Source: Crossiella cryophila (GTDB lineage Bacteria; Actinomycetota; Actinomycetes; Mycobacteriales; Pseudonocardiaceae). From it: a stretch of DNA of 64,000 bases. This document shows positions 49,320 to 64,000 of the stretch, in pieces (position 1 is the stretch's first letter; every line of letters starts with the position of its first letter). The stretch lies in contig NZ_JACHMH010000001.1 of the NCBI RefSeq assembly GCF_014204915.1, positions 6,287,501-6,351,500 on the forward strand. The letters run 5' to 3'. The notes below the pieces were generated by a model. That model was given only the letters and a program-made list of their open reading frames with translations, was not told the origin of the DNA and searched no databases. The translations under genes were made by a program, and so were the position numbers.

Positions 49320-50272
49320 CACGGGCCGCCGCCAGCACCGTGGCTATCGCCGCGGTACTCACCTTTGCCGTGGGCGCGCCGACGCCCGCTGAGGCAAGCC
49401 GGGATGGCCAGATCGTGGTGGTTCCCGGTGACCTCTTCGGCCACATCGGAGCCCCCTCCGTCGACCTCGGCGCCACCGCACCCAGTCAACCGGGCCGTCC
49501 AGGTCGCGGCGCGAGCGCCTCCACCGGCCGCGGCAGTGCGGCACCGACCTGCACCTACTCCCCCGCCGCGCACAGCCCGTCGGAGATGTTCGACCGGTAC
49601 CGCGAGTGGCACACAGGCTCCCTGGGCGGGGACGGCAAGGCCGCCTACACCCGCACCTGCAACGGGGCGACCAGCGGCTGGGTCACCGGACCCGCCCCAG
49701 GCCCAGGCGCCCGGTCGGCGCCGGTCCTGCCCAGCCCCGCAGAGTTGGCCGAGCGGGCCTTCGAGCAGCTCGTGTTGCCGCTGCCGATGCCCCGGATGTC
49801 CCCGGACGTGCAGCTCGCAGACGGGCGCCGGGCCACCGTGGTCGGCGAGCACACCTGGCTGTGGACCGAGCCGACGGTGTGGCGGCCGCAGGTGGAACGG
49901 GTGCAGGCCGGACCGGTCTGGGCCCAGGTCACCGCGACGCCCACTAGGTTGTCCTTCGACTCCGGCATGGGCCAGGGCCGCACCTGCACGGGGCCCGGCA
50001 CGCCGTACACCCGCGCGGCCGGGCTGCACGCCCCGTCGCCCACCTGTGACTTCGTCTACCCGCGCTCCTCCCACGGCCGCCCCGGCGAGCAGGTTCGCGC
50101 GCGGTTCACCATCACCTGGTCGGTGAGCTGGACCGGCTCCACCGGCACCGCGCCCGCCGGGGGCCGACTGCCCGATCTGATCTCCCGCGCCGAGCTAACC
50201 CTGGCCGTCGTGGAAGCCCAAGCCCTGCGGCGCGACCACGCAGCGAATTCCGCGTTATCAGGAAAGGGGTGA
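49316..50272 (+). CDS. Tad-locus secreted protein of unknown function
   Basis: This 318-residue protein has a Sec signal peptide (residues 1-~27, ending PAEA). A mature part is rich in Pro/Gly linkers with four-plus cysteines (SAAPTCTYSP, RTCNGATSG, GRTCTGPG, SPTCDFVYP), so it is exported and disulfide-bonded. ATG 49316 is fixed by the 4-nt overlap with the previous stop. No family is recognised. It may be a pilus-associated extracellular component. Confidence 0.72.
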   Translation: MTRAAASTVAIAAVLTFAVGAPTPAEASRDGQIVVVPGDLFGHIGAPSVDLGATAPSQPGRPGRGASASTGRGSAAPTCTYSPAAHSPSEMFDRYREWHTGSLGGDGKAAYTRTCNGATSGWVTGPAPGPGARSAPVLPSPAELAERAFEQLVLPLPMPRMSPDVQLADGRRATVVGEHTWLWTEPTVWRPQVERVQAGPVWAQVTATPTRLSFDSGMGQGRTCTGPGTPYTRAAGLHAPSPTCDFVYPRSSHGRPGEQVRARFTITWSVSWTGSTGTAPAGGRLPDLISRAELTLAVVEAQALRRDHAANSALSGKG

Positions 50273-50277
50273 ACACC

Positions 50278-50958
50278 ATGGGACATCCCCTGCCCAGTGC
50301 ACCCGCTGTCGCACGGAACAGTGCAGCGACCTCAGCAGCTCGGTCCGATCACCCGGCGCGGTTGCCGAGGCGGCGGCGCTGGTGGTTGCTGATCGCCGCG
50401 GTGGTGCTGGCCGCCGGGGCCGGCTACGGCAACTACCTGCTCATCTCCGCCCACGATGCCCGGGTCACGGTGCTGGTGCTGGCGCGCCAGGTCGAGTGGG
50501 GGCAGCGGATCACCGAGGCCGACCTGGCCACGGCCCGCATCGTCGAAGACCCCGCCGTGCACATGATCCGCGAGGAAGACCGCGCCACCGTGCTCGGCAA
50601 GACCGCGGCCACCGGGTTACCCGAGGGCAGCGTGCTCGCCCCGAAACACCTGACCGCAGACGCGATTCCCGCTGCGGGACAACACGTTGTCGCACTGGCG
50701 ATCAAATCGGGCCAGTTGCTCGCCCGCGGTCTGCACCCCGGCGAACGGGTCCAGGTGACCCCGATCGCCGCCAACCAGACCAGCGTGGACGGGGCGCTTC
50801 GGGGAACAGGGTTCGCCGCCCGGGTGCTGGTCGTCGGTAAGCCGGATACCCAAGGTGCGCTCACCGTCGACGTCGTGATCACCGCCGACCAGCTCACCAC
50901 GGCGACCGCGGCCGCGGCCGGTCCGGTGATCCTGACCCTGCTCGGCCCCGGGAACTAG
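50278..50958 (+). CDS. SAF-domain pilus assembly protein (CpaB/RcpC-like)
   Basis: This 226-residue protein starts at ATG 50278, 8 nt after AAAGGGG. One TM helix (~35-57) is followed by an SAF domain (~62-135, VTVLVLARQVEWGQRITEADL...GSVLAPKHL) and a C-terminal RcpC/CpaB region (GQLLARGLHPGERVQVTPI). In Tad systems CpaB/RcpC assists pilus assembly at the envelope. It overlaps, or nearly so, the preceding and following genes. Confidence 0.88.
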   Translation: MGHPLPSAPAVARNSAATSAARSDHPARLPRRRRWWLLIAAVVLAAGAGYGNYLLISAHDARVTVLVLARQVEWGQRITEADLATARIVEDPAVHMIREEDRATVLGKTAATGLPEGSVLAPKHLTADAIPAAGQHVVALAIKSGQLLARGLHPGERVQVTPIAANQTSVDGALRGTGFAARVLVVGKPDTQGALTVDVVITADQLTTATAAAAGPVILTLLGPGN

Positions 50959-50974
50959 GGAGGTGTGGCAGGTG

Positions 50975-51787
50975 ATGGCCGTGATCGCGATCGTCTCCGG
51001 CAAGTCCGCGCCTGGCGCGACCACCACCGTGGCCGCACTCGCCCACGCCTGGCCGGCGCCGCTGGTACTCGCCGACTGCGACCCCCACGGCGGCGACCTC
51101 ACCACCGGCTGGTTGTCACCGTGGTGGCTGCTGGGACAGCTGCGCCCCGAGCTGGGCGTGCTGTCCTTCGCCACCGCCACCCGGCACACCACCACCATCA
51201 CCGCAGACCTGCTCACCAGCCACCTCCAGACCGTGCCACCGGCGCCGCTGGCCAGGTTGCTGGCCGGGCTGGCCGACCCGGCCCAGGCCACCGCGCTCGG
51301 CGACGGCGGCTGGCAGCGGCTGGCCGAAGCGTTCACCGCGGCGTCCACGAGCCCGTACGGGGCGGTGGACGTGCTGGCCGACTGCGGGCGGATCACCGGC
51401 GCCACGGTGCCCTGGCCGGTGCTGGAGGCCGCCGACCTCATCCTGCTCGCCGTGCGCCCCGTGCCCCGGCACCTGCACTCCGCCCAACCCGCCCTGCTCG
51501 CGCTACGCGAACGCATCCCGGCCGACCGACTTGGCCTGGCGGTCTGCGGCACCACCCAGCTCGGCGTACGCGAAGTCCAGCGCCTGCTCGGCGTTCCGGC
51601 GCGCCTGAGCATGCCCGAGGACGCCACAACGGCCAGCGTCTTCAGCGACGGAGCCGACCGGCGACGCAGCGAGCGCACCGTGTTCGCCCGGGTTGCTGAG
51701 CGCACCGCGCTGCGCCTGCACACCGCCGGAACCCTCGCCCGTCCCGCAACCGCGGCACTGACCACCGTGAACGGAGCCCTCCGATGA
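50975..51787 (+). CDS. ParA/MinD-like ATPase (TadZ/CpaE-like)
   Basis: This ~270-residue Rossmann-type ATPase has a deviant Walker A SGKSAPGATTT (residues 8-18). The canonical KGGxGKT second lysine is Ala in GA-TT, as also in other actinobacterial CpaE-like proteins. Later motifs ADCDPHGGDLTTGWL and LADCGRI are as expected for this family. It probably places the Tad machinery at the cell pole or septum. GTG 50963/50972 starts are possible. It overlaps the TadA gene by 4 nt. Confidence 0.82.
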   Translation: MAVIAIVSGKSAPGATTTVAALAHAWPAPLVLADCDPHGGDLTTGWLSPWWLLGQLRPELGVLSFATATRHTTTITADLLTSHLQTVPPAPLARLLAGLADPAQATALGDGGWQRLAEAFTAASTSPYGAVDVLADCGRITGATVPWPVLEAADLILLAVRPVPRHLHSAQPALLALRERIPADRLGLAVCGTTQLGVREVQRLLGVPARLSMPEDATTASVFSDGADRRRSERTVFARVAERTALRLHTAGTLARPATAALTTVNGALR

Positions 51788-53259
51788 CCGCGGAACGACC
51801 CGAACCCGCCCGGCCACCCCGGCGCGGCGGACTCCACGCCGTCCCCACCGATCCCCACACCCCGCCGACCGATGCACCGAGGACGAGACCGGACCCGGAA
51901 CTGGTGCGGCAGCTCCGCCTCATCGTCGCCGCGCGTCGAGCCGAAGCCGACCAGGACGACGCCGATGGACAGGATCTCGCCGCGGAGCATGCCCGCGTGC
52001 TGGCGCTGGTGCAGGAGGAGATCACCGCCTGGGTGGTGCGCAACGCCCAGGCCGGGCACCCGCCGGTGACGATGACCTTCGAGCGCGAACTCGCCCAGGC
52101 AGTGGTCGCCTCCATGGCCGGGCTCGGCACCCTCTTGCCCCTGCTGGAACAGGAGGACGTCGAGAACGTCCACATCCACGGCTACGACCAGGTGTGGCTG
52201 GACCTGGCCGACGGCACGCTCCAACGCTGGCCGTACGCGGTGGCCGACTCCGACGCCACGCTCACCGCCATGGTGACCGATCTGGCCGCCCGCATGGGTC
52301 GCACCGCCCGCGAGTTCAGCTCGGCCAATCCCATGACCAGCTTCCGCCTGCCCATCGGCGGCGTGCTGGGCGCCCGGCTGTCCGCGGTGATCGGGGTGTC
52401 GGGCCGGCCGCGGATCGCCATCCGCCGCCACCGCCTGCACGATGCCGGCTTGGACGACCTGATCCGCGCCGGCACCGTCGACACGATTCTGGTGGCGTTC
52501 TTGCGGGCGGCGGTCCTGGCAGGGCGCAACATCCTGGTCACCGGCGGCCCCTACACCGGCAAGACCACCTTCTTGCGCTGCCTGGCCCGCGAGATCCCCG
52601 CCCACGAACACCTTGCCACCGTGGAAGATGACGCCGAACTGGGCCTGGACCTGCTGGGCACCCACACGCTGGTGACGCCGCTGGAGACCCGACAGGCCAA
52701 TGCCGAGGGCGTTGGCGCGATCGACCTGGACGACCTGCTCAAGCAAGTCCTGCGTCACTCACCGGGCCGGGTCCTGGTCGGGGAAGTCCGGGCCGGAGAG
52801 GTCACCTCACTGCTGCGCGCCTTGGGCAACGGCGCAGTCGGCGGCGGCATGGCCACCCTGCACGCAGGCTCCGCCGCCGCGGTCCCCGACCGCATCGCCG
52901 CCCTCGGCCAACTCGCCGTGCCACCGCTGCCGGTGGAGGCCGCCTACCGCTGGACAGCCTCAGCGGTGCACCTGATCGTGCATCTGGCCAAGACCGACCA
53001 CCACGACCCGCACTCCGGCCGATCCTGCCGCCAGCGCTACATCACCGAGATCGCCGAAATCGGCCCGGTCGGCGAGACCGGCCGCCCCGACCTCACCCGC
53101 ATCTTCAGCCCCCGCCCGGTCGACGGCCGGGCGATCCCGGACTTCCCGCCCAGCCCGGCCCTGCTGACCGAGCTGGTCCGGCACGGCTTCGATCCCGGTC
53201 TGCTGCACCAGGTCGACGGGGACTGGCAACCTGCACAACTCCGCCGGGACCTGCCATGA
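51784..53259 (+). CDS. Tad secretion ATPase TadA/CpaF
   Basis: This 491-residue hexameric secretion ATPase has Walker A GGPYTGKT at 254-261, an Asp-box ETRQANAEGVGAIDLDDLLK and Walker B LVGEVRAGE (331-339). The N-terminal domain (FERELAQAVVASMAGLG...VENVHIHGYDQVW) is typical of TadA/CpaF. It energises pilus extension and retraction with TadB and TadC, encoded directly downstream with 4-nt overlaps. Confidence 0.95.
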   Translation: MTAERPEPARPPRRGGLHAVPTDPHTPPTDAPRTRPDPELVRQLRLIVAARRAEADQDDADGQDLAAEHARVLALVQEEITAWVVRNAQAGHPPVTMTFERELAQAVVASMAGLGTLLPLLEQEDVENVHIHGYDQVWLDLADGTLQRWPYAVADSDATLTAMVTDLAARMGRTAREFSSANPMTSFRLPIGGVLGARLSAVIGVSGRPRIAIRRHRLHDAGLDDLIRAGTVDTILVAFLRAAVLAGRNILVTGGPYTGKTTFLRCLAREIPAHEHLATVEDDAELGLDLLGTHTLVTPLETRQANAEGVGAIDLDDLLKQVLRHSPGRVLVGEVRAGEVTSLLRALGNGAVGGGMATLHAGSAAAVPDRIAALGQLAVPPLPVEAAYRWTASAVHLIVHLAKTDHHDPHSGRSCRQRYITEIAEIGPVGETGRPDLTRIFSPRPVDGRAIPDFPPSPALLTELVRHGFDPGLLHQVDGDWQPAQLRRDLP

Positions 53260-54143
53260 CCACCGTGTCGGTGGTGCTGGGTGTGGTCTTGGCGGCCGCG
53301 CTCGGACTCGCTGTCGCCGGTCTCCGGACCTCGCCGGTGCCTCCGGTGCGGGATGGTTCTGGTTCCCGCGGGGGTGCCGTGGCGGTCCGGCCGCGGCAGT
53401 GGGCCTGGCTGAAGCCGTTGATGCTGGGCCTGGTGGTCGGCGGAGTGGTGGGCTGGGCCAGCGGGTGGCCGGTCGCCGCCGTGGCCGCCGGACTCGGCGC
53501 AGTGCTGGTGCCCCGCGCGGTAACGCAACCGGGCAACCGCGGCATGATCACCACCCTGGAGGCCGTGGCCGAATGGACCCGCCGGTTGGCCGACCTGCTC
53601 GGCACCGGCGCCGGCGGCCTGGAAACCGCGATCACCGCCAGCGCCGCCACCGCCCCCGCCGCCATCGCCGAACCCGTGCAGGCCCTGGCCGCCAGCACCC
53701 GCGTCGGCGGGCTGGACCCGGCACTGTGGGAGTTCGCCCGCCAACTCGACCACGCCGCCGCCCACCGCGTGGTGGCCTGCCTGATCCTGCGCCACCGCAG
53801 CGGCGGCCGCGGCCTGATCCCGATCCTCAACGAACTGGCCAGCTCCCTGCGCCAGGATGTAGCCGGACGCCGCCAGGTCGAAGCCGACCGCGCCAAGATC
53901 CGCACCTCCGTGCGCGCCCTGCTGGCCATCATCACCGCTATGACCGTGGGCCTGCTGGCCGCCACCGAGGACTACCTCGCCCCCTTCGACACCCTCACCG
54001 GACAGTTGTGGCTGGCCCTGGTCATCGGCCTGATCGCCCTGGCCTGCACCTGGCTGGCCGCGCTGACCCGCCTCCGGCCCGAGCCGGGATTCCTGCTGCG
54101 CCCCCAGACCTCCGGCAGTGCCGCGCGGAGGTGGCGGTCATGA
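53256..54143 (+). CDS. Tad inner-membrane platform protein (TadB-like)
   Basis: This 295-residue protein has TM segments at the N-terminus (~1-20, ~48-68) and two near the C-terminus (ALLAIITAMTVGLLAATEDY; LWLALVIGLIALACTWLAAL). A type II secretion F domain spans the middle (LEAVAEWTRRLADLLGTGAGGLETAI...). It overlaps TadA and TadC by 4 nt, so the platform is co-translated. It forms the inner-membrane base of the pilus. Confidence 0.9.
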   Translation: MTTVSVVLGVVLAAALGLAVAGLRTSPVPPVRDGSGSRGGAVAVRPRQWAWLKPLMLGLVVGGVVGWASGWPVAAVAAGLGAVLVPRAVTQPGNRGMITTLEAVAEWTRRLADLLGTGAGGLETAITASAATAPAAIAEPVQALAASTRVGGLDPALWEFARQLDHAAAHRVVACLILRHRSGGRGLIPILNELASSLRQDVAGRRQVEADRAKIRTSVRALLAIITAMTVGLLAATEDYLAPFDTLTGQLWLALVIGLIALACTWLAALTRLRPEPGFLLRPQTSGSAARRWRS

Positions 54144-55039
54144 ACTCCACGGTGGTGGTCGTGGCGCTGGGCGCCTGCGCCGGACTGGCGGTGGCGTTGC
54201 TGATCGCCGCATTGGTACCGGCACCGCGGATGGACCTGGTCGCGGCCATGACCCAGGTGCAGAACCGCCACAGCCCAACCGATGCAGCCGGGACGCCTCG
54301 TGCTCGGCGGCGGTGGCGACCAGGGCAGGTGCTGGAGGTGCTCGCCGAGCGCGCGGCCAGCTCGGACAGCCGGTGGTGGGGTGCCCCGGTGGTCGAGCTG
54401 GAGCTGTTGCAGCGCACCGTCATCGGCTACGTCGCCGCGCGCCTGGGATGGGGCCTTCTCACCTGCGCCTCCATCATCCTCATCGGCAGCGCGCTCGGTG
54501 TGGACGTGCTCACCGTCGTGGTACTGGCCGTAGCCGGTGCCTTCGCCGGGTCGCTGATCCCTGCGGCCCGGGTTCGGCGGGCCGCCGCCGCGGTGCGGCT
54601 GGAGTTCGCGCGCACCCTGGCCTCCTACCTCGAACTCGTCGCGCAGGAACGCTCGGCCGGTGCCGCGCCTACCGCGGCCCTGACCGAGGCCGCCACGATC
54701 GGCAACGGCCTGGTGTTCAACCGCATCCGGGAGATCCTCACCCGCACCCGACACACCGGAACACCTGCTTGGGACGCCCTTTCTCAGTGGGGGCAACGGT
54801 TCCAGATCCCCGCGATGGTCGAGCTGGCCGACATCACGGCCACCGCCGCGGACGGCGCGGCCATCTACACCACCCTGACCGCCAAGGCCGCCGCACTGCG
54901 CCAAGCCGCCCTGGCCAGTGACCGGGAAGAGGCCAACCGGCGCTCGGAAACCCTCGTCGGCCCCCTGGCCTGCCTGCTGTTCGCCTTCATGATCCTCATC
55001 ATCTACCCGCTGTTCACTCGCCTGCTCGAAAGGATGTAA
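54140..55039 (+). CDS. Tad inner-membrane platform protein (TadC-like)
   Basis: This 299-residue TadC-like F-domain protein has N-terminal TM segments (VVVALGACAGLAVALLIAAL), a large F domain (LASYLELVAQERSAGAAPTAALTEA...) and a C-terminal LLFAFMILIIYPLFTRLL helix. It pairs with TadB to form the platform. It overlaps TadB by 4 nt, and the Flp-like pilin follows 6 nt later. Confidence 0.9.
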   Translation: MNSTVVVVALGACAGLAVALLIAALVPAPRMDLVAAMTQVQNRHSPTDAAGTPRARRRWRPGQVLEVLAERAASSDSRWWGAPVVELELLQRTVIGYVAARLGWGLLTCASIILIGSALGVDVLTVVVLAVAGAFAGSLIPAARVRRAAAAVRLEFARTLASYLELVAQERSAGAAPTAALTEAATIGNGLVFNRIREILTRTRHTGTPAWDALSQWGQRFQIPAMVELADITATAADGAAIYTTLTAKAAALRQAALASDREEANRRSETLVGPLACLLFAFMILIIYPLFTRLLERM

Positions 55040-55045
55040 CCAGCC

Positions 55046-55303
55046 ATGCACCGCACACCCCGAGCCCAGACCGGAGACCCGAATCTCCGCATCCGGCTCC
55101 TCCTATTGCTCCTGCTCGCCACCGCGGCGGCTGACCAGATCGGCACCACTCTGCCCCGGCAGCTCCGGGGCCGCCGGGGCGGTGACGACGGGGTCGAGAC
55201 CGTGGAGATCGCCATCGCCATCGCCGCGGGCGTCGTCGTCGCGCTCGGGGCCGTGGCCCTCTACAAGCTCGTTGTCCAGAAGTACCTCAACCAACTGCCC
55301 TGA
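55046..55303 (+). CDS. Flp-type pilin with long leader
   Basis: This 85-residue protein has the prepilin site G49|V50-E-T-V-E54 followed by a hydrophobic helix (IAIAIAAGVVVALGAVALYKLVV), matching G|xxxxE of Flp/TadE prepilins. The mature pilin would be only ~36 residues. The 49-residue leader has its own hydrophobic stretch (RLLLLLLLATAAA) and is longer than the usual Flp leader of under 25, perhaps because of a misplaced start or a dual-membrane leader. It is the pilus subunit. Confidence 0.8.
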   Translation: MHRTPRAQTGDPNLRIRLLLLLLLATAAADQIGTTLPRQLRGRRGGDDGVETVEIAIAIAAGVVVALGAVALYKLVVQKYLNQLP

Positions 55304-55315
55304 CCGGTGAACACC

Positions 55316-55759
55316 ATGACCACCACCATCCACACAGGACAGACCCAGGCCAGCCGAGCCCGGCGGGATGATCGTGGTGCGGCGACGGTGCAGCTGGCCG
55401 TGCTGATGCCGGTCGTGCTCCTGCTGTTCGCCCTGGCCACTCAGCTCGGGCTCCTCTGGTACGCCCGCAGCCTGTGCCAAGCAGCAGCCCAAGCCGGACT
55501 TCAGGCTGCCCGCACCGTCACCGGCACCCCCGCCGACGGCCAGCAGGCCGCCCATTCCTTCCTGGAGCGGGCCGGCACCGGCCTGCTTACCAACACCGCG
55601 GTCACCGCGACCGCCACCACGAGCACGGTGAGCGTGGAGGTCTCGGCCACCGTGCCGCGCCTGCTTCCCTTGCCTGGGCTGGAGTTGCGGGTCATCCGAA
55701 GCGTCACCGGCGCCCAGGAACGCTTCACCACCCCCGCCGACACCGGGAGGCCACGATGA
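55316..55759 (+). CDS. TadE-like pseudopilin
   Basis: This ~147-residue protein has a basic N-terminus (SRARRDDRG), then G|AATVQLAVLMPVVLLLFALAT. This is a prepilin-like site with Gln where E5 is usual, and a TM helix. An extracytoplasmic domain follows. GTG 55307 is an alternative start. It is a minor pilin of the Tad system; the Gln in place of E5 sets it apart from the next gene. Confidence 0.8.
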   Translation: MTTTIHTGQTQASRARRDDRGAATVQLAVLMPVVLLLFALATQLGLLWYARSLCQAAAQAGLQAARTVTGTPADGQQAAHSFLERAGTGLLTNTAVTATATTSTVSVEVSATVPRLLPLPGLELRVIRSVTGAQERFTTPADTGRPR

Positions 55760-56202
55760 CCCGCCGCCCACGCCACCGCGGATGGGACGCGGCCGGGTCG
55801 GTCAGCGTGGAGTTCGCCGCCGCCGCAGGTCCCGTGCTGCTGCTGACGATCGCGGCCATGATCGCCGCCGGGCGGATCATGCTGGCCGACAACGTGATCA
55901 CCGACGCCGCCACCGCCGCGGCCCGCACCGCGTCCCTGGCCCGCACCGCTGCCCACGCACGCCAGACAGCCACCGCGACCGCGTACCGGGTACTCACTGA
56001 ACAGCGACTGCACTGCCGCAGTATCACCGTCACCCTGGACACCTCCGGCTTCACCGTCCCCCTCGGCCAGCCCGCGACCGTGTCCGCGACGGTGACCTGC
56101 GTGGCCGAGCTGAGCGACCTGGCCCTGCCTGGACTGCCCGGCACCCGAACCCTGCAGGAGACCTTCACCAGCCCCCTGGACAGTTTCCGGGGCCGAACAT
56201 GA
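55756..56202 (+). CDS. TadE/TadF-like pseudopilin
   Basis: This 148-residue protein has the prepilin site G|SVSVE (E at +5) after a basic N-terminus and an FAAAAGPVLLLTIAAMIAAGR helix. The extracytoplasmic part has two cysteines (LHCRSI, VTCVAEL). It overlaps the previous gene by 4 nt (ATG 55756) and the next by 4 nt. It is a minor pilin of the apparatus. Confidence 0.82.
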   Translation: MTRRPRHRGWDAAGSVSVEFAAAAGPVLLLTIAAMIAAGRIMLADNVITDAATAAARTASLARTAAHARQTATATAYRVLTEQRLHCRSITVTLDTSGFTVPLGQPATVSATVTCVAELSDLALPGLPGTRTLQETFTSPLDSFRGRT

Positions 56203-56627
56203 CACCCGCGGCTCGGCGGTTCGGCGACGAGGGGGCGGTCAGCGCGATGACCGCGATCCTGCTCGCCGCCCTCCTGCTCGTCTTCGCTCTCCTCGTCGAC
56301 GGCACGACACGGTTGCAGGCGCTGTCCCGGGCGGATGCGATCGCCGCGGAAGCCGCGCGGGCCGCGCTGACCGCGGTCGACACCCGCAGCACCCCCATCC
56401 AATTGGACACCACCACCGCACACACCATCGCCCACAGCTACCTGACCCGGTCCGGCTGCCCCGGCACGGTGGAGATCACCTCCGCCCGTACCGTCCGGGT
56501 TGAAGTGCGCTGCACCGCCCCGGCCCGCACCGGCCTGGTCGGCTCCCACCACACCGTGACCGGCACCGCCACCGCCCAGCTCGACATCGGCACCACTCCA
56601 CCACCTGGCCACGGTGCCCGGCCATGA
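56199..56627 (+). CDS. TadG-like pilus assembly protein
   Basis: This 142-residue protein begins RRFGDEGAVSAMTAILLAALLLVFALLVDG, a TadG/TadE-type anchor with G|AVSAM in place of the prepilin E5. A helical/beta extracytoplasmic domain with two cysteines (RSGCPGTVEI, EVRCTAPA) follows. It overlaps the neighbours by 4 nt, so it is part of the Tad operon. Confidence 0.8.
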   Translation: MTPAARRFGDEGAVSAMTAILLAALLLVFALLVDGTTRLQALSRADAIAAEAARAALTAVDTRSTPIQLDTTTAHTIAHSYLTRSGCPGTVEITSARTVRVEVRCTAPARTGLVGSHHTVTGTATAQLDIGTTPPPGHGARP

Positions 56628-59383
56628 CCAGCACCCGCCCGCCGCGCCGTCCGGGCGATCTCGCCCGGGGCCTGGCCGCCGTTCTGCTGGTGGCCACGAT
56701 GGTGGTGGGGCTCCCGGTCGGGTTGCTGGAGTTCGGTGCCGACCCGCGCCGCCTCATGCCGGACCCATGGCCCCGTTGGGCCGAGATCGATGTGTGGCTG
56801 GAACGAACCTGGCACGCCGCCCGCTTCGCCCTGGGTGACGGCACCCTGATCCCGGGCCTGCTGCTGGCCGTGCTCTGGTTGACCTGGCTGGTCATGCTCG
56901 GCCTGGTCCTGACCGAGACCATCCACCAACTGCGCCGCGGCATCCACACCGTGCGGTCGGGGGTCGGTCCGCGGCGGTGGATCGCCGGCCTGGTCGCCGC
57001 CATCCTCATAGTCCTGCTGCCCCAGTCCGCGGTCGCCCTGCCCGCCACTGGATCGACCCCAGTGGCCACCGCCCTCCACGACCCCGAAGGCTCCGGCAGA
57101 GGGACCGTCCGCAAGGCCACGGTGTCCACTGTGGACGCTGGGCTGGCGCGGCGCCGAACAGTAGACCCGGCGGTGCGCCCGGAGTGCCCCCGGCTCACAG
57201 TCCAGCCCGGCGACACGATGGCCAGCCTGGCCCGCACCCACCTGGGCGATCCCCGCCGCCACAACGAGATCCACCGCCTCAACGCCGACCGCATCCCCAA
57301 CGCGCACGCGCTCTACCCCGGCGACGTACTCCTACTTCCACCACCAGCCTCGAACACGCCACCGGTTGGGACCCGGACCGTGACGGTCAGTGCCGGGGAG
57401 ACCGCTTCCTCGATCGCACAACGGGAGTACGGCCACCACGGCGGCTGGTGGCGGTTGTGGAACGACAACCACCACCGCCCCCAGCCTGATGGCCGATCCT
57501 GGACCGACCCCGACCAGCTCCGACCCGGCTGGCGACTCTGGATCACCCAGCCACCAACCCGACCCGGCACCCCGCCACCTCCGACGCCGCCACCACCTCC
57601 CGCCACCACGACGACTTCCCCCAGTCCAAGCCCAGCTACCGTGGCACCCACCCCGAACCCCGGCCAGCCCAGCCCTGGCGCCCCGGCCGAGACCGTGGTG
57701 AAGATGCCCTCCGGCGCGATCGTGGGGATCGGCTTCGCCCTCTCGATCGCGGTGGCCGCCACGGCACTGCGCCTGCGCCGCCGGCACCGCCGCCGCCTCA
57801 CCGGAACCCTGCAACCACCCGCACCGTCTCCGGCCATGCCGCCCACCGTCGCCCTCCTGGAACGCGCTGCCCGCCCCCACGACCCCGAGCCTGCCCCGCG
57901 CCGCAGTTGGCCGCCGCCACCAGCCGTGCTCACCGCCCACACCGACACCGGCAACGTCCGCACCCTCGACCTGGCCGATGCGGCCGGGCTCGGCCTCACC
58001 GGGGAGGGCGCCACCGCGGCCGCCCGCGCCATGGTGACGGCGATCCTGGCCACCGACACCCGCTACCCCGCCGAACTGCTCCTCGCCGGCGCTCCCGCCA
58101 CCGAATGCCTGCCCGCCCTCGCCCCGGCTGAACAACCCGGGGTGCGCTGCTTTGCCGACCTCGCCCCGGCCCTGGAAGTACTGGAAGCCGAGGTCGCCCG
58201 CCGCACCCGGCTCCACGTTGACGCTGAACTTGATGATCACCGCGGCGCCCCGGCCACCGCGGAGACCGCGGAACGCCAGTTCGATCCGGACGAAGCCGTG
58301 CCCACCCTGCTCCTCCTGACCACCCCGGAGGCTGCGAGCACGCCGCGGCTGCGCAGCGTGCTGGAGTTGGGGCGCCAGCTGGGTGTGGTCGGCCTGTTAC
58401 TGGGCTCCTGGTCCAGCAGGCTGGACATCGCCGCCGACGGCCTGATCGCCACCGCCAGCGGCGAGCACACCGCCGCCATGGTCGGCGCCCGCGCGGAAAC
58501 GCTCACCGACACCGAAGCTGCCGAAACGCTCAGCGTGGTCCTGGCCGCTCGCGGTGGCGCAGACCCCGTCGCGAGCGCCCCGGAGGCGCGAACCGAGACC
58601 GCCACTGTCGAAGCCACGGCTGCGCCCACCCGGCCCGCACCGGTGCGGCTGCAGGTCTTCGGCCCACCACGGATCACCGTGGTGGGCAAGGAGATCACCC
58701 ACGGGCTGCGCAACCTGGGCCGGGAAGTGCTGGCCTACCTGGCCACCCACCCCAGCGGCACAGGCGCGGCCGCCCTCCAGGACCAGCTCATGCCCGAGGT
58801 CGCCGCCGACACCGGGCGCGCGCAGATCCACACCGCGGTCAGCAACATCCGCACCGCCCTGCGCAAGGCCACCGGCATCGCCGAAGCGCAGTTCGTGCAC
58901 AGCCGCGGCGGCCGCTACCGCCTGGACCCGGAACTGATCGCCGTGGACGCCCATGAGCTGGCCGCGACGATCCTCCAAGCCCGCGCCGCCATCGGCGAAC
59001 AGGACCAGAGCCGCGCCCTGCGCCGGGTCCTCGACCTCGCCCGGCCCGGACCGCCCCTGGACGAAGTCGGCTACCTGTGGGCCGAGGAAATCCGCGAATC
59101 ACTCCGGCAACAGGCGTCCAACGCGCTACTCCGACTGGCCACACTTGTTCGCGAACCCGACCCGGAAACCGCAATCGATGCCTTGTCGGTGGCCATCGCC
59201 CTGGACCCGTACGCCGAATCCGTGTACCAACAACTCGTCCAGCTGCACCTCGACGTCGGCCACCGCAGCGCGGCAGTCGCCATCTACCGGCAACTGAAAG
59301 TACGACTGGCCGACATCGACACCGAACCAACCCTGGAGACGGAGGCGCTCCTTCAGCAAAAAGTCCCGTCGAGCACAGCTTGA
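56624..59383 (+). CDS. Membrane LysM-BTAD (SARP-like) protein at the Tad operon end
   Basis: This 919-residue protein has several TM helices in the first ~150 residues, then two LysM-like modules (~189-240, LTVQPGDTMASLARTHLGD; ~251-310, VTVSAGETASSIAQREYG). A Pro-rich linker and a further TM (~363-385) follow. The cytoplasmic half carries a SARP-like winged-helix domain (~672-770, VRLQVFGPPRITVVGKEI...GGRYRLDP) and a BTAD-like helical domain (~775-910). LysM parts would face the cell wall while the DNA-binding-like part faces the cytoplasm, suggesting a wall-to-gene signal transducer. It ends the Tad operon. Confidence 0.8.
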   Translation: MTSTRPPRRPGDLARGLAAVLLVATMVVGLPVGLLEFGADPRRLMPDPWPRWAEIDVWLERTWHAARFALGDGTLIPGLLLAVLWLTWLVMLGLVLTETIHQLRRGIHTVRSGVGPRRWIAGLVAAILIVLLPQSAVALPATGSTPVATALHDPEGSGRGTVRKATVSTVDAGLARRRTVDPAVRPECPRLTVQPGDTMASLARTHLGDPRRHNEIHRLNADRIPNAHALYPGDVLLLPPPASNTPPVGTRTVTVSAGETASSIAQREYGHHGGWWRLWNDNHHRPQPDGRSWTDPDQLRPGWRLWITQPPTRPGTPPPPTPPPPPATTTTSPSPSPATVAPTPNPGQPSPGAPAETVVKMPSGAIVGIGFALSIAVAATALRLRRRHRRRLTGTLQPPAPSPAMPPTVALLERAARPHDPEPAPRRSWPPPPAVLTAHTDTGNVRTLDLADAAGLGLTGEGATAAARAMVTAILATDTRYPAELLLAGAPATECLPALAPAEQPGVRCFADLAPALEVLEAEVARRTRLHVDAELDDHRGAPATAETAERQFDPDEAVPTLLLLTTPEAASTPRLRSVLELGRQLGVVGLLLGSWSSRLDIAADGLIATASGEHTAAMVGARAETLTDTEAAETLSVVLAARGGADPVASAPEARTETATVEATAAPTRPAPVRLQVFGPPRITVVGKEITHGLRNLGREVLAYLATHPSGTGAAALQDQLMPEVAADTGRAQIHTAVSNIRTALRKATGIAEAQFVHSRGGRYRLDPELIAVDAHELAATILQARAAIGEQDQSRALRRVLDLARPGPPLDEVGYLWAEEIRESLRQQASNALLRLATLVREPDPETAIDALSVAIALDPYAESVYQQLVQLHLDVGHRSAAVAIYRQLKVRLADIDTEPTLETEALLQQKVPSSTA

Positions 59384-60141: not shown

Positions 60142-60501
60142 ATGCCTCACCACCAGCCCACCCAAACCCGGCAACCCGACCTCACCCCGGTGCCCACCGG
60201 GGGCCTGCACGACCAGCTGCGCCATCAGGAGGTGCGCATCACCGAGGACGTCCTCGCGCTCATCGACTACCTCTCCCGCATCGTGAGCGGCGCCGGCGCC
60301 GGCAACTGGTTCTACGTCCACGAGAAGCTGCCCGAGCTGATCCGCAGCGCTTACAGCCTCACCGAGGCGCTGTCCACAGCAGACGGCGAGGACTTCGAGG
60401 AACCCAACGTGCGTCCCGCCATGGTCATGGCCGCGATCACCAGCCGTGCCCACTACTACCTGTTGGGCTGCGCGATCAGCCCGCCGGAAACCACCAGGTG
60501 A
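60142..60501 (+). CDS. Unrecognised protein, family A (copy 1)
   Basis: This 119-residue soluble, mainly helical protein starts at ATG 60142 with GGAAGGAG 7 nt upstream. It carries EDVLALIDYLSRI, NWFYVHEKLPELIRSAYSLTEALST and EEPNVRPAMVMAAI. These line up residue for residue with the gene at 61989, so the two are paralogues. No known domain is recognised. It is the first of four consecutive plus-strand genes; two related genes of family B separate it from its paralogue. Confidence 0.75.
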   Translation: MPHHQPTQTRQPDLTPVPTGGLHDQLRHQEVRITEDVLALIDYLSRIVSGAGAGNWFYVHEKLPELIRSAYSLTEALSTADGEDFEEPNVRPAMVMAAITSRAHYYLLGCAISPPETTR

Positions 60502-60592
60502 ACAGCACCTGGAGCGGTTGGACCCCATGGCGGCACGTGCGCGCTGGCCCACTTCCGCCACCGTCACAACCCGAACGGCAGGAGGTGTCGGC

Positions 60593-61189
60593 ATGTCCGC
60601 CCAGCACTCGCGCATCCGGCTGGTGAACGGCCCGGCCGCGAACCTCGCGGCACAGGCGGCAGTCCGGGCCGCGGCGCTCCCCCAGCGCGCCCTGTTCACC
60701 TGCCCCGCACTCGACCACGCCGCTGCGCTGTTCGCCGCCGGCCGCCGCCGGGTGTGCGCCTCGGACCGGCCGGTGGCGGTCGAGGTGGCCTCCGCCTGCC
60801 TGACCGCGACCCACACCAGGTACCGGGTAAGCAGGCTCCCCACCCAGCACGCCGCGATCGAACTCCTGAACATCCTCACCCACGCGTTGCACACCCGAGG
60901 GCTGGCCGCCCGGCGCACCGGCCTGCTCGTGGCCTTGCCGTGGTCGGTGTCCCTGCTGGCCTCCAGGCGGCGCAGCGAGGCCCTCCAGCAGCCGAGTGTG
61001 TCCCTGGAGAGCGCCTGGCAACTGGTGCTGACCCGCGCCGCCGCCCAGCCCGCGATCACCGTCATCGCCTCCTATGACACCGCCGGCGCCCACGCCGTAG
61101 CCGAGCTGGTGCACGAACTCCTCACCGGCATGTACGGCGATCCGTTCGCCCGCGGGATCCCCGAACTGACCATCCGCGGCTGGTGGTGA
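60593..61189 (+). CDS. Unrecognised protein, family B (copy 1)
   Basis: This 198-residue protein starts at ATG 60593 behind AGGAGG. Its C-terminal half (LAARRTGLLVALP, SAWQLVLTRA, PAITVIAS, AGAHAVAELVHELLTGMYGDPFAR) aligns with the gene at 61292. It has a mixed alpha/beta pattern and no signal peptide or TM helix. No known domain is recognised. It sits between the family A and B' genes in one transcription unit. Confidence 0.72.
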   Translation: MSAQHSRIRLVNGPAANLAAQAAVRAAALPQRALFTCPALDHAAALFAAGRRRVCASDRPVAVEVASACLTATHTRYRVSRLPTQHAAIELLNILTHALHTRGLAARRTGLLVALPWSVSLLASRRRSEALQQPSVSLESAWQLVLTRAAAQPAITVIASYDTAGAHAVAELVHELLTGMYGDPFARGIPELTIRGWW

Positions 61190-61291
61190 CCCGCCAGCTG
61201 TTCTCCGCGCCTGACAGCCGATGGCCGGACTCGCGCCTGCTGTACCGCACCAGCTCACTCGCCAGCACCTGTTCGAACGGGAGGGATCGCC

Positions 61292-61885
61292 ATGCCCGCA
61301 ACACCCACGACCACCGCACCCCGGGAGAGCGCCGCGCTCCGGTTCGCGGCAGGCAGAGCCGTCCTCACCGCGGCGACCCGCCTGCGGGCCCTCCTGTTCA
61401 CCCGGCTCGCGCTGGAGCGGGCCACCGCGCTGCTGGACGACCTCTACGCCGTCGGCCAGAGCTACGACGTGCAACCCTCGCGCTGGGACATGGTGACCGA
61501 CCTGGCGGGGGCGAGCCTGTCGGTGACCTGCTCCCAGTACCGCGCCTCGATCCCGCAGACCGCCGAAGCCGCGGCCGCGCTCCTCGACGCCGTCGCCGAG
61601 TCGCTGCGCGAGCACGGGGTGGCGACCCGGCGCACCGAGCTGCTGGTGCCCTTGCCCCGGCGGGAGAACAGCCCGCATTGGGGACGCACGGGCCAGGCGC
61701 GCCTGGCCCTGAGCATGACCATCGACAGCGGCTGGCAGCTTGTCCTGGAGTTGCCCAACGTCTGGCCAGGTGCTTGGCCCGAGATCACCGTGGCAGCTCC
61801 GCACGACGAGGCCGGCGCCCGCGCGGTCGCCGAACTGGCGCTGGAGATCCTCGCCGGTCGGCACGCGGATCCGTTCCTCCGCTGA
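61292..61885 (+). CDS. Unrecognised protein, family B (copy 2, B')
   Basis: This 197-residue paralogue of the gene at 60593 shares the TRRTELLVPLP...SGWQLVLEL...ITVAAPHDEAGARAVAELALEILAGRHADPFLR layout. The N-terminal halves are more different, suggesting domain-specific divergence. It starts at ATG 61292 with GGGAGG 7-8 nt upstream. No known domain is recognised. Confidence 0.72.
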   Translation: MPATPTTTAPRESAALRFAAGRAVLTAATRLRALLFTRLALERATALLDDLYAVGQSYDVQPSRWDMVTDLAGASLSVTCSQYRASIPQTAEAAAALLDAVAESLREHGVATRRTELLVPLPRRENSPHWGRTGQARLALSMTIDSGWQLVLELPNVWPGAWPEITVAAPHDEAGARAVAELALEILAGRHADPFLR

Positions 61886-61988
61886 GTCCACCCCGCGCAC
61901 ACTGACCGGCACTCCGGGCCCGAGCAGCCGACCACCAGCAACGCGATCCTGCCCAGACCTGTCCCGCTCGCAAGAAGGAGGCCACGCT

Positions 61989-62345
61989 ATGTCGCGTCGA
62001 ACCCGCGGCCACCATCCCGGCACCGGCGCCGCTCAGGAGGCCGCTGACGACATCTACCGACAGCTCCGTGGCGAGGAAGCCCGGGTGGCCGAGGACTTCG
62101 TGGAGTTGCTCGACTACCTCTCCCGCATTGAGGCGGGCATCAGCCGCGGCGACTGGACCTACACCCGCAGCAGACTGCCTGGGCTGATTCGCGCGGCTAC
62201 CAACCTCACCGAGGTGCTGTCCACACCGGACGGTGCAGAGCTGGAAGAACCCGACGCGCGCCCGGAGTTCGTGATGGCGGCCATCAGCCAGTGGTCCCAA
62301 CGCTATCGGCTCGGCCGCGCCGCCTATCCCCTGACCGCGGGCTGA
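61989..62345 (+). CDS. Unrecognised protein, family A (copy 2, A')
   Basis: This 118-residue paralogue of the gene at 60142 shares AEDFVELLDYLSRIEAG, DWTYTRSRLPGLIRAATNLTEVLST and EEPDARPEFVMAAIS. ATG 61989 has GAAGGAGG 7 nt upstream. Together with A, B and B' this gives the gene order A-B-B'-A'. No known function. Confidence 0.75.
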   Translation: MSRRTRGHHPGTGAAQEAADDIYRQLRGEEARVAEDFVELLDYLSRIEAGISRGDWTYTRSRLPGLIRAATNLTEVLSTPDGAELEEPDARPEFVMAAISQWSQRYRLGRAAYPLTAG

Positions 62346-62447: not shown

Positions 62448-63350
62448 TCACCCGGCTGGCGGGGCAAGGCCGTTGCCCATTGGGGTCGCGCTCGGGCGGG
62501 TCGCACCGGCGTACCGGCCAAGAGTGGCCAGTTCGGCGATCTGCACGCGCTGGCCGAAGGTCGGAGCGTGGATGACCTTGCCGTCGCCGACGTGCAGCAC
62601 CACGTGGTGGATCTTGGTTTTCGGGTTTCCGAAGAACACCAGGTCGCCCGCCAGTAGCGGCGCGCCGGGCGGTACCGGCGGTCCGGCGAAATAGTGGGTG
62701 TGCGCGGTACGCGGCAACGTGATCCCGGCGGCGTAGGCGGCGCGGGTCAGCCCGGAGCAGTCGAAGCCGCCTTCGGCCGGGCCGTCACCGCCCCACACGT
62801 ACAGCTGGCCGATCTGGGCCTTCGCGAACTCGGTGGCGCGTTGGGCCGCCGCCGAGGACGGTGCGACGGAACGGCGGTAGCTGTCAACCAGCAGTAGCCG
62901 GTGTCCTGGACAGGCCGCAGCCATGCCGAGCCGCCACCACACCGGCCAGGCCCCGCCTGACTTGGCCAAGCATCGAGGGCAAGCGCGGCTGCGCATGAAC
63001 AACGCCCACTCCCTGCGCATCAGCGGATGCATCGAGCGATCATCGGACAAGTCCAGGCCGGTGGAATCCAGCGCTGTCCCGGAAAACCTGGACAGACAGA
63101 TCCTGTTGAACACCTCAGCAGGCAACCCGGTTGCCCCGGCCAGCCCCGCTCGGGACGCCACCGCCACCCCGTAGAACCGTGGCCGCAACGTGCTGCCGCC
63201 CGAACCCACCCGACACTCCAGGCCCAGCCACCGCGCCGCGTTCCCCGTCGACGTGCCATAGCTGGCCGCTACCCGATCGACCCACGACCCGAGGAAATCG
63301 CCCGTGCCTGGGCGCGGCACCACAGCCAACCGCCGTGGCCGCAACGCCAT
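62448..63350 (-). CDS. TniQ-NlpC/P60 chimeric protein
   Basis: This ~300-residue protein (ATG 63350; a GTG at 63425 is possible) has two unrelated parts. Residues 1-157 look like the N-terminal half of TniQ: LAVVPRPGTGDFLGSWVDRVA, HPLMRREWALFMRS, the zinc-type CPRC (C124, C127) and the CPGH (C147, H150). Residues ~165-285 form an NlpC/P60 peptidase with Cys198 (GFDCSG) and His249 (IHHVVLHVG), normally a secreted wall hydrolase. No signal peptide is present, so the peptidase part may be stranded in the cytoplasm. It looks like a gene fusion made by transposition, with the TniQ half truncated at its C-terminal zinc region. Confidence 0.78.
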   Translation of the reverse strand: MALRPRRLAVVPRPGTGDFLGSWVDRVAASYGTSTGNAARWLGLECRVGSGGSTLRPRFYGVAVASRAGLAGATGLPAEVFNRICLSRFSGTALDSTGLDLSDDRSMHPLMRREWALFMRSRACPRCLAKSGGAWPVWWRLGMAAACPGHRLLLVDSYRRSVAPSSAAAQRATEFAKAQIGQLYVWGGDGPAEGGFDCSGLTRAAYAAGITLPRTAHTHYFAGPPVPPGAPLLAGDLVFFGNPKTKIHHVVLHVGDGKVIHAPTFGQRVQIAELATLGRYAGATRPSATPMGNGLAPPAG

Positions 63351-63494
63351 CAATGGAGCAATCGTTGATGTGGTGATCCGCAACCACCCGACTACCAAAC
63401 ACGATAGGAACCCGCCAACAAACACTCTAAAGAGTGAATTGGGTGCAATCCATTGCGATACGCCAGATTCGGGTCAGCGACCGCTCGACCTGGA

Positions 63495-64000
63495 TCAGCA
63501 GTCGCGGAGTGCGAACGGGATCAGGGCGAGATGAATCTCCCGTTCTGGATCGTCCTGGGCGCACATGGTGAACTCGAACTCCTCACCCCCTGACCGAGCT
63601 GCACCGCGCTTGTAGTTCGGGTGATCCTCGATCTTCCTCACGGCCTTGTCGATCACCGCAGTGACGTCCTTGTTGCGGATGAACAGGAGGATGGCGGCCT
63701 TGGTGTCCCGCCACACGAGGTACCTGAAAAGTTGATCGAGCGCCTCGTCCATGGTCTTGGGGCCTGACCACACCTTGCATTCGCCGATGAAGATGTTGCG
63801 GTCGTCGACGCGGATGAGGATGTCGGTCTTGCCTTCCCCGTTGAACAACTCGCCGGCAGCGTCGCCCTCGAACTGGGCGTTCAGGCCGACTAGGAGAAGA
63901 TCCCGGATCTGTTCTTCCTTGAGCGTGGCGGCAAGAGACGGAGTCCGTTCAAGCGCGTTGCGTTGGTTCCGCAGAACGCGCAGTGCGGCCTGGTAGTCCG
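63495..64000 (-). CDS. PD-(D/E)xK-like nuclease protein (N-terminus beyond window)
   Basis: The frame is open to the window edge on the minus strand, so the N-terminus lies beyond 64000. The visible ~168 residues contain QIRDLLLVGLNAQFEGDAAGELFNG..., then KTDILIRVDDRNIFIGECKVW. Asp and E-C-K fit the D...ExK catalytic core of restriction-type nucleases. FRYLVWRDTKAAILLFIRNK follows. No methylase is visible; it may be a restriction or phage-defence enzyme. Confidence 0.7.
   Translation of the reverse strand, partial: DYQAALRVLRNQRNALERTPSLAATLKEEQIRDLLLVGLNAQFEGDAAGELFNGEGKTDILIRVDDRNIFIGECKVWSGPKTMDEALDQLFRYLVWRDTKAAILLFIRNKDVTAVIDKAVRKIEDHPNYKRGAARSGGEEFEFTMCAQDDPEREIHLALIPFALRDC

Follow-up and report, generated by a model that had tools for sequence, protein, structure and literature searches.

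Paired paralogues of two unnamed actinobacterial mobile-element families lie in a variable cargo spot of a putative integrative-conjugative element of Crossiella cryophila

The DNA considered here (the window) is a 64-kb stretch of Crossiella cryophila GCF_014204915.1, corresponding to positions 6287501-6351500 of the 10.06 Mb chromosome (NZ_JACHMH010000001.1), and it harbours four consecutive genes at 60142-62345, all on the plus strand, in the order A-B-B'-A'. Gene A (60142..60501) encodes a small acidic protein of 119 aa with a net charge of -6, whilst gene A' (61989..62345) encodes one of 118 aa whose nearest relative is the A-like gene of a second Crossiella element, G108:C5. Between them lie B (60593..61189; 198 aa, net charge +9), a divergent member of its family without the PR..TTPxWG stretch found in many of the other members, and the more typical B' (61292..61885; 197 aa). 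Both B' and A' are weakly acidic, with net charges of -2 and -3, respectively. The genes are separated by 91, 102 and 103 nt, and third-codon-position GC reaches 0.91, 0.87 and 0.91 in the reading frames containing A, B and B'. A purine stretch resembling a Shine-Dalgarno sequence precedes all four ATG codons, in agreement with the ribosome-binding sites reported in a preliminary description of this DNA. An array of gene cassettes with recombination sites was considered and ruled out, as no long repeat is common to the intergenic stretches.

That description had also proposed that the four genes form two paralogous pairs with no recognisable domain, and both points are upheld. Over query residues 21-114, A and A' are 50 % identical (E 1e-24), and their local score of 236 far exceeds the best value from 1000 shuffles, 54; B and B' are 43 % identical (E 1e-19), scoring 240 where 1000 shuffles reached at most 75. 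No third copy of either family occurs in the 10.06 Mb genome at E ≤ 0.001. None of the four proteins has a match above cut-off in Pfam or NCBIfam, and PADLOC leaves A, B and B' unmatched, returning for A' only typeIV_Cas11 at E 0.024. The top PHROGs match is phrog_8343 (E 0.005), a family of unknown function, and sequence searches of the PDB gave no convincing match (top E 0.047). We found no paper naming either family, neither of which has a name to search by. An AlphaFold2 model of B', built from a two-sequence input, is of low confidence (mean pLDDT 52.7, pTM 0.47), and its layout of four helices followed by strands and a helix was not assigned to a fold at that confidence; the B family is likewise predicted to consist of helices, then a beta region and a final helix. 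The notions that A and B are distant relatives of one another, or that either is related to the genes adjoining A-like genes elsewhere, were rejected, as hhalign probabilities for pairs involving A or B were 0.1 to 2.5.

Upstream of the array is a plus-strand module at 50263..59383 comprising SAF-like/ParA-like, TadA-type ATPase, TadB, TadC/TadE-like and LysM-BTAD genes. The ATPase (51784-53259) has a T2SSE match, the other Tad-module names having been assigned by eye from the reading frames, and the LysM-BTAD gene (56624-59383) lies upstream of A. Downstream, on the minus strand, follows a gene encoding TniQ fused to an NlpC/P60 remnant (62448..63425; Pfam TniQ E 1.6e-16, NLPC_P60 E 1.5e-20), confirming the TniQ chimera noted beside the array in the preliminary description. 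Beyond it is the 3′ part of a minus-strand gene (63495..64000), which extends past the end of the window (L024:2-1423). The product of this gene, originally called a nuclease, matches the PADLOC candidate PDC-S54 at E 3.1e-137 and has no Pfam match.

The PDC-S54-like and TniQ genes lie between remnants of a second SLT-NlpC gene (minus strand, window 62448-64000 and L024:1-1500), which match the intact gene at residues 37-108 and 190-325. The latter remnant is the one fused to TniQ, at 62897-62490, and judging by this arrangement the chimera looks like an insertion junction.

Past the array, and on the opposite strand, genes for SLT and NlpC/P60 domains, Replic_Relax, a VirB4-type TraG/TraC P-loop protein and PrgI are recognised above cut-off, together with a coupling-type and a TrbL-like protein whose matches fall below it. 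No tRNA gene occurs in the 64-kb window. As type IV secretion and coupling genes of this kind are expected of an actinobacterial conjugative element, the host element is probably of the integrative-conjugative type, with Tad-pilus and type IV secretion modules, and its gene content suggests that it would be mobile between cells.

Related elements were sought by using the TadA-type ATPase as a query in four other Crossiella genomes (G108, G055, G086 and G016). Close relatives (79-91 %) were found at four places, two of them in G108 and one each in G055 and G086; G016 holds only distant ones. With the element of C. cryophila itself, this gives five stretches from four genomes, each of which runs from the TadA/TadB-type and LysM-BTAD genes through a variable stretch to an SLT-NlpC gene on the opposite strand. 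Replic_Relax follows the latter in four of the five, and the G055 stretch ends before that point. The contents of the spot differ among all five. By profile, A-like genes are present in the spot of the C. cryophila element (two) and of G108:C5 (one), and B genes in that of the C. cryophila element only.

Scans of selected large proteins from these spots returned, in every case, either a defence-database match or a STAND-type NTPase. The C. cryophila element has the PDC-S54 candidate (PADLOC), G055 a ShosA/PsyrA-like DprA-fold protein as well as an HNH protein, and G108:C42 an NB-ARC/TPR protein; the nSTAND NTPases of G086 and G108:C5 score just above and just below cut-off, respectively. PADLOC has no match for the two nSTAND NTPases, such that designation of this site as a defence spot is based on mixed evidence.

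With regard to the distribution of the A-like family, direct searches reach few relatives. Amongst 297 genomes of the bacterial family, A' matches only its own genome and G108, and a genome-collection scan using a single short pattern from A' returned one Crossiella locus. Searching plasmids with A at E values up to 1 yielded three records, one of them a Sphingomonas plasmid, of which only L052 (E 1e-3) approaches significance. No plasmid match was obtained for A' or for the A-like protein of L023, no phage match for A', and no relative in viral contigs with the first A alignment. Starting from the L052 match, A-like genes were found on plasmids that are all from Streptomyces (14 of the 14 matched records), in phage ZL12 (two records of a single phage), in 2 IMG/VR contigs and in three further genomes among 394. 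Membership of the family was assessed with a profile of 12 A-like rows containing zero Crossiella sequences, with which 1155 reading frames were scanned. This profile finds A at E 9.7e-9 and A' at 1.3e-8. Together with the one in G108:C5 and a further gene of G108, these four Crossiella genes span E values from 4e-11 to 1e-8, and the next match comes only at E 2. On sequence grounds, A is thus a distant member of an unnamed family of small acidic proteins found on Streptomyces plasmids and in phage ZL12. Net charge is acidic in all 16 rows measured and none has a membrane-bound appearance; A is probably helical and soluble.

The genes that adjoin A-like genes vary; the tally of neighbours included 69 of 76 called genes and listed 25 of 64 families. 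On four Streptomyces plasmids the A-like gene overlaps, start to stop, a gene of about 248 aa from another unnamed family (L052:8500-9246, L053:8435-9175, L055:4476-5228 and L063:4497-5249), two members of which were scanned and have no Pfam match. At L056, L057 and L066 the overlap is instead with a tyrosine recombinase gene, for which the Phage_integrase match has an E value of 7e-12 in L066 and of 1e-5, below cut-off, in L057.

In an actinobacterial genome (G494), two A-like genes enclose a NUDIX gene, the three being consecutive on one strand (L073:8783-10314). By eye, a translocase-like gene lies upstream, and C5 DNA methyltransferase-like and SSB-like genes downstream.

The recombinase overlaps, and the placement of the L073 genes between putative translocase and methyltransferase or SSB genes, would suit a reading in which A is an accessory factor in the processing of element DNA, by site-specific recombination or transfer, with B as an unrelated bystander. 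We regard this as unlikely, for most A-like loci, including the window, have no recombinase next to the A-like gene, and the uniformly acidic charge of the measured rows argues against direct DNA binding.

The L073 arrangement bears equally on another proposal, namely that members of both families act as accessory partners to NUDIX proteins encoded on the elements, Pif of pSAM2 being one example. As described in PMC3218068, Pif is a NUDIX protein that blocks redundant conjugation, i.e. confers conjugal immunity. A motif search located a NUDIX box at four of the 19 A-like loci and two of the 14 B loci, with L030 added by similarity. At L060 and L061, a fused NUDIX-RapZ_C gene is directly upstream of the A-like gene, and at L010 NUDIX, RapZ_C and B genes are consecutive. 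Such neighbourhoods are nevertheless the minority: 15 of the 19 A-like and 12 of the 14 B loci have no NUDIX box, L059, L060 and L061 are close relatives, and the box, sought as one motif rather than a profile, is absent from the window and from two further stretches of the same genome (L024 and L051). Moreover, proteins matching the NUDIX-RapZ_C fusion appear in 365 plasmid records, a frequency that makes chance neighbourhood likely, and a general partnership with NUDIX proteins is accordingly given a low probability.

It may be added that NUDIX and RapZ C-terminal domains, whether fused or neighbouring, recur on actinobacterial plasmids (e.g. L060:3024-3908, L061:3021-3902, L010:8542-9728 and L049:7391-10991).

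Judged by sequence searches, B belongs to an actinobacterial family that is rarer than the A-like family and in part plasmid-borne. B' has relatives in 11 of the 297 genomes of the bacterial family, its own included, and on Amycolatopsis and Streptomyces plasmids; a B relative used as query added a match on a Prauserella plasmid, and the B profile finds members in four of 394 genomes of the class, again counting its own. A profile without the window rows recovers B' at E 3.4e-48 and B at E 1.4e-24. Several homologues reside in chromosomal contigs amid ordinary genes, with no obvious mobile element. Plasmid searches with the B proteins of L048 and L026, a phage search with B', and viral-contig scans with B' and three further B proteins all returned no relative. 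Amongst the loci collected, L025 and L054 are repeat records of L009 and L033.

The history of the array was considered from gene trees and from adjacency across genomes. In the A tree, which omits the genes of L062 (truncated), L066 and L073-L075, A' groups with the G108:C5 gene (support 93/92) and A falls outside. Correspondingly, A' is identical to the G108:C5 gene at 76 of 97 positions, whilst A matches A' at 51 of 107 and the G108:C5 gene at 53 of 102. A sister grouping of A with A' is not formally excluded by an AU test (p 0.075), which leaves room for a single ancestral duplication. Between A' and the G108 gene, dN is 0.18 and dS 0.52, indicating that A' has been kept as a protein. In the B tree, which omits L029 (a near copy of L028) and the fragments L035 and L050, the pairing of B with B' is weakly supported (72/70), and B' aligns about equally well with L026 of another genus (score 246), with B (240) and with the pAmyja1 protein (238).

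It had been proposed that the nested order arose by duplication and rearrangement of an A-B unit, as in diverged toxin-antitoxin or self/partner systems, with A-B and B'-A' as the resulting pairs. The even gaps, the single run of paralogous pairs, the opposite charges of A (acidic, -6) and B (basic, +9) and the candidate defence genes in the same spot all speak for this. Partner adjacency across genomes, as would be anticipated for a toxin and its antitoxin, is nonetheless not seen. Within flanks of roughly 4-10 kb, or less on certain contigs, the A profile finds no A at E ≤ 1 in any of the 14 other B loci, and the B profile finds in the 19 other A-like loci only two overlapping reading frames of L063, at E 0.1 and 1, neither of them convincing. 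On these searches we reject a conserved A-B pair, the A-B neighbourhood being known only from this array. In addition, the G108:C5 element retains a relative of A' without B, the sister status of B and B' is not clear, and weak acidity is common to B' and A'. We therefore consider toxin-antitoxin or self/partner pairs improbable, and the duplicated unit of the preliminary description is not borne out, with A' nearer to the G108 gene than to A. Most likely, members of the two families were gained, or kept, one after another in the spot to give the A-B-B'-A' order, a history that is preferred since stacking in a cargo spot requires less than duplication of a unit plus inversion.

In G108:C5, the relative of A' is itself flanked by two copies of a further unnamed family, the first of which overlaps it start to stop; this family and its stretch lie at L022:9891-10250 (minus strand), within L022:8219-9616 (minus strand), and at L087:10167-10457. 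Paired paralogues around a gene are therefore not special to A-B-B'-A' within this spot.

Taken together, the array is real and unannotated, and consists of members of two unnamed mobile-element families in a cargo spot. In the explanation we propose, A, B, B' and A' would be cargo genes of an integrative-conjugative-type Crossiella element. They would derive from two families, unrelated to each other, that mobile elements of actinobacteria carry, and would have accreted by successive gain or retention. They may serve the element in defence, in exclusion of rival elements or in DNA handling, with A as a putative protein-binding adaptor whose partners vary between elements; such an adaptor is suggested by candidate defence genes in the spot together with A-like overlaps with varied partners. 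The explanation as a whole, with accreted cargo serving the element, most likely in its protection, and A as adaptor, has in our estimation an even chance of being correct. Its specific component, that the role is to protect element and host by defence or exclusion of rivals, is more tentative and, taken singly, less likely than not. A bolder version would have the array as a new multi-gene module for defence or superinfection exclusion, in which the paired paralogues of A (a small acidic adaptor) and B (an alpha/beta protein) differ in the invaders that they recognise, and in which proteins of the wider A family would be common adaptors that actinobacterial plasmids couple to effectors such as recombinases and NUDIX proteins; this we hold to be very unlikely. 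These data provide a first outline, in terms of distribution, neighbours and profile, of two unnamed families carried by plasmids and conjugative elements of actinobacteria, and point to a cargo spot of Crossiella elements in which defence genes, known or candidate, occur repeatedly. If A does prove to be an adaptor common to many Streptomyces plasmids, it would offer a tractable route to how plasmids guard or process themselves.

In comparison with known systems, the A-like proteins encoded by Streptomyces plasmids and by phage ZL12 (e.g. WP_330335624, WP_006351133 and pZL12.90) have in common with A their family, small size, acidity and carriage on mobile elements, but are about 25-35 % identical to it, and B is not among the neighbours of their genes, which instead are a recombinase, the ~248 aa gene or NUDIX-RapZ_C genes. 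Plasmids pAmyja1, pZL1 and pPmarDSM45268, like the array, carry clear B homologues, yet as single copies with no A within the stretches searched. The NUDIX protein Pif of pSAM2 shares its protein class with genes adjoining some A-like and B genes, whereas A and B are themselves not NUDIX proteins and have no NUDIX box nearby in C. cryophila. Finally, although A and B, unlike recognised defence cargo, have no weighty PADLOC match of their own, the array occupies the same spot of related elements as such cargo, namely PDC-S54, ShosTA/PsyrTA and STAND NTPases.
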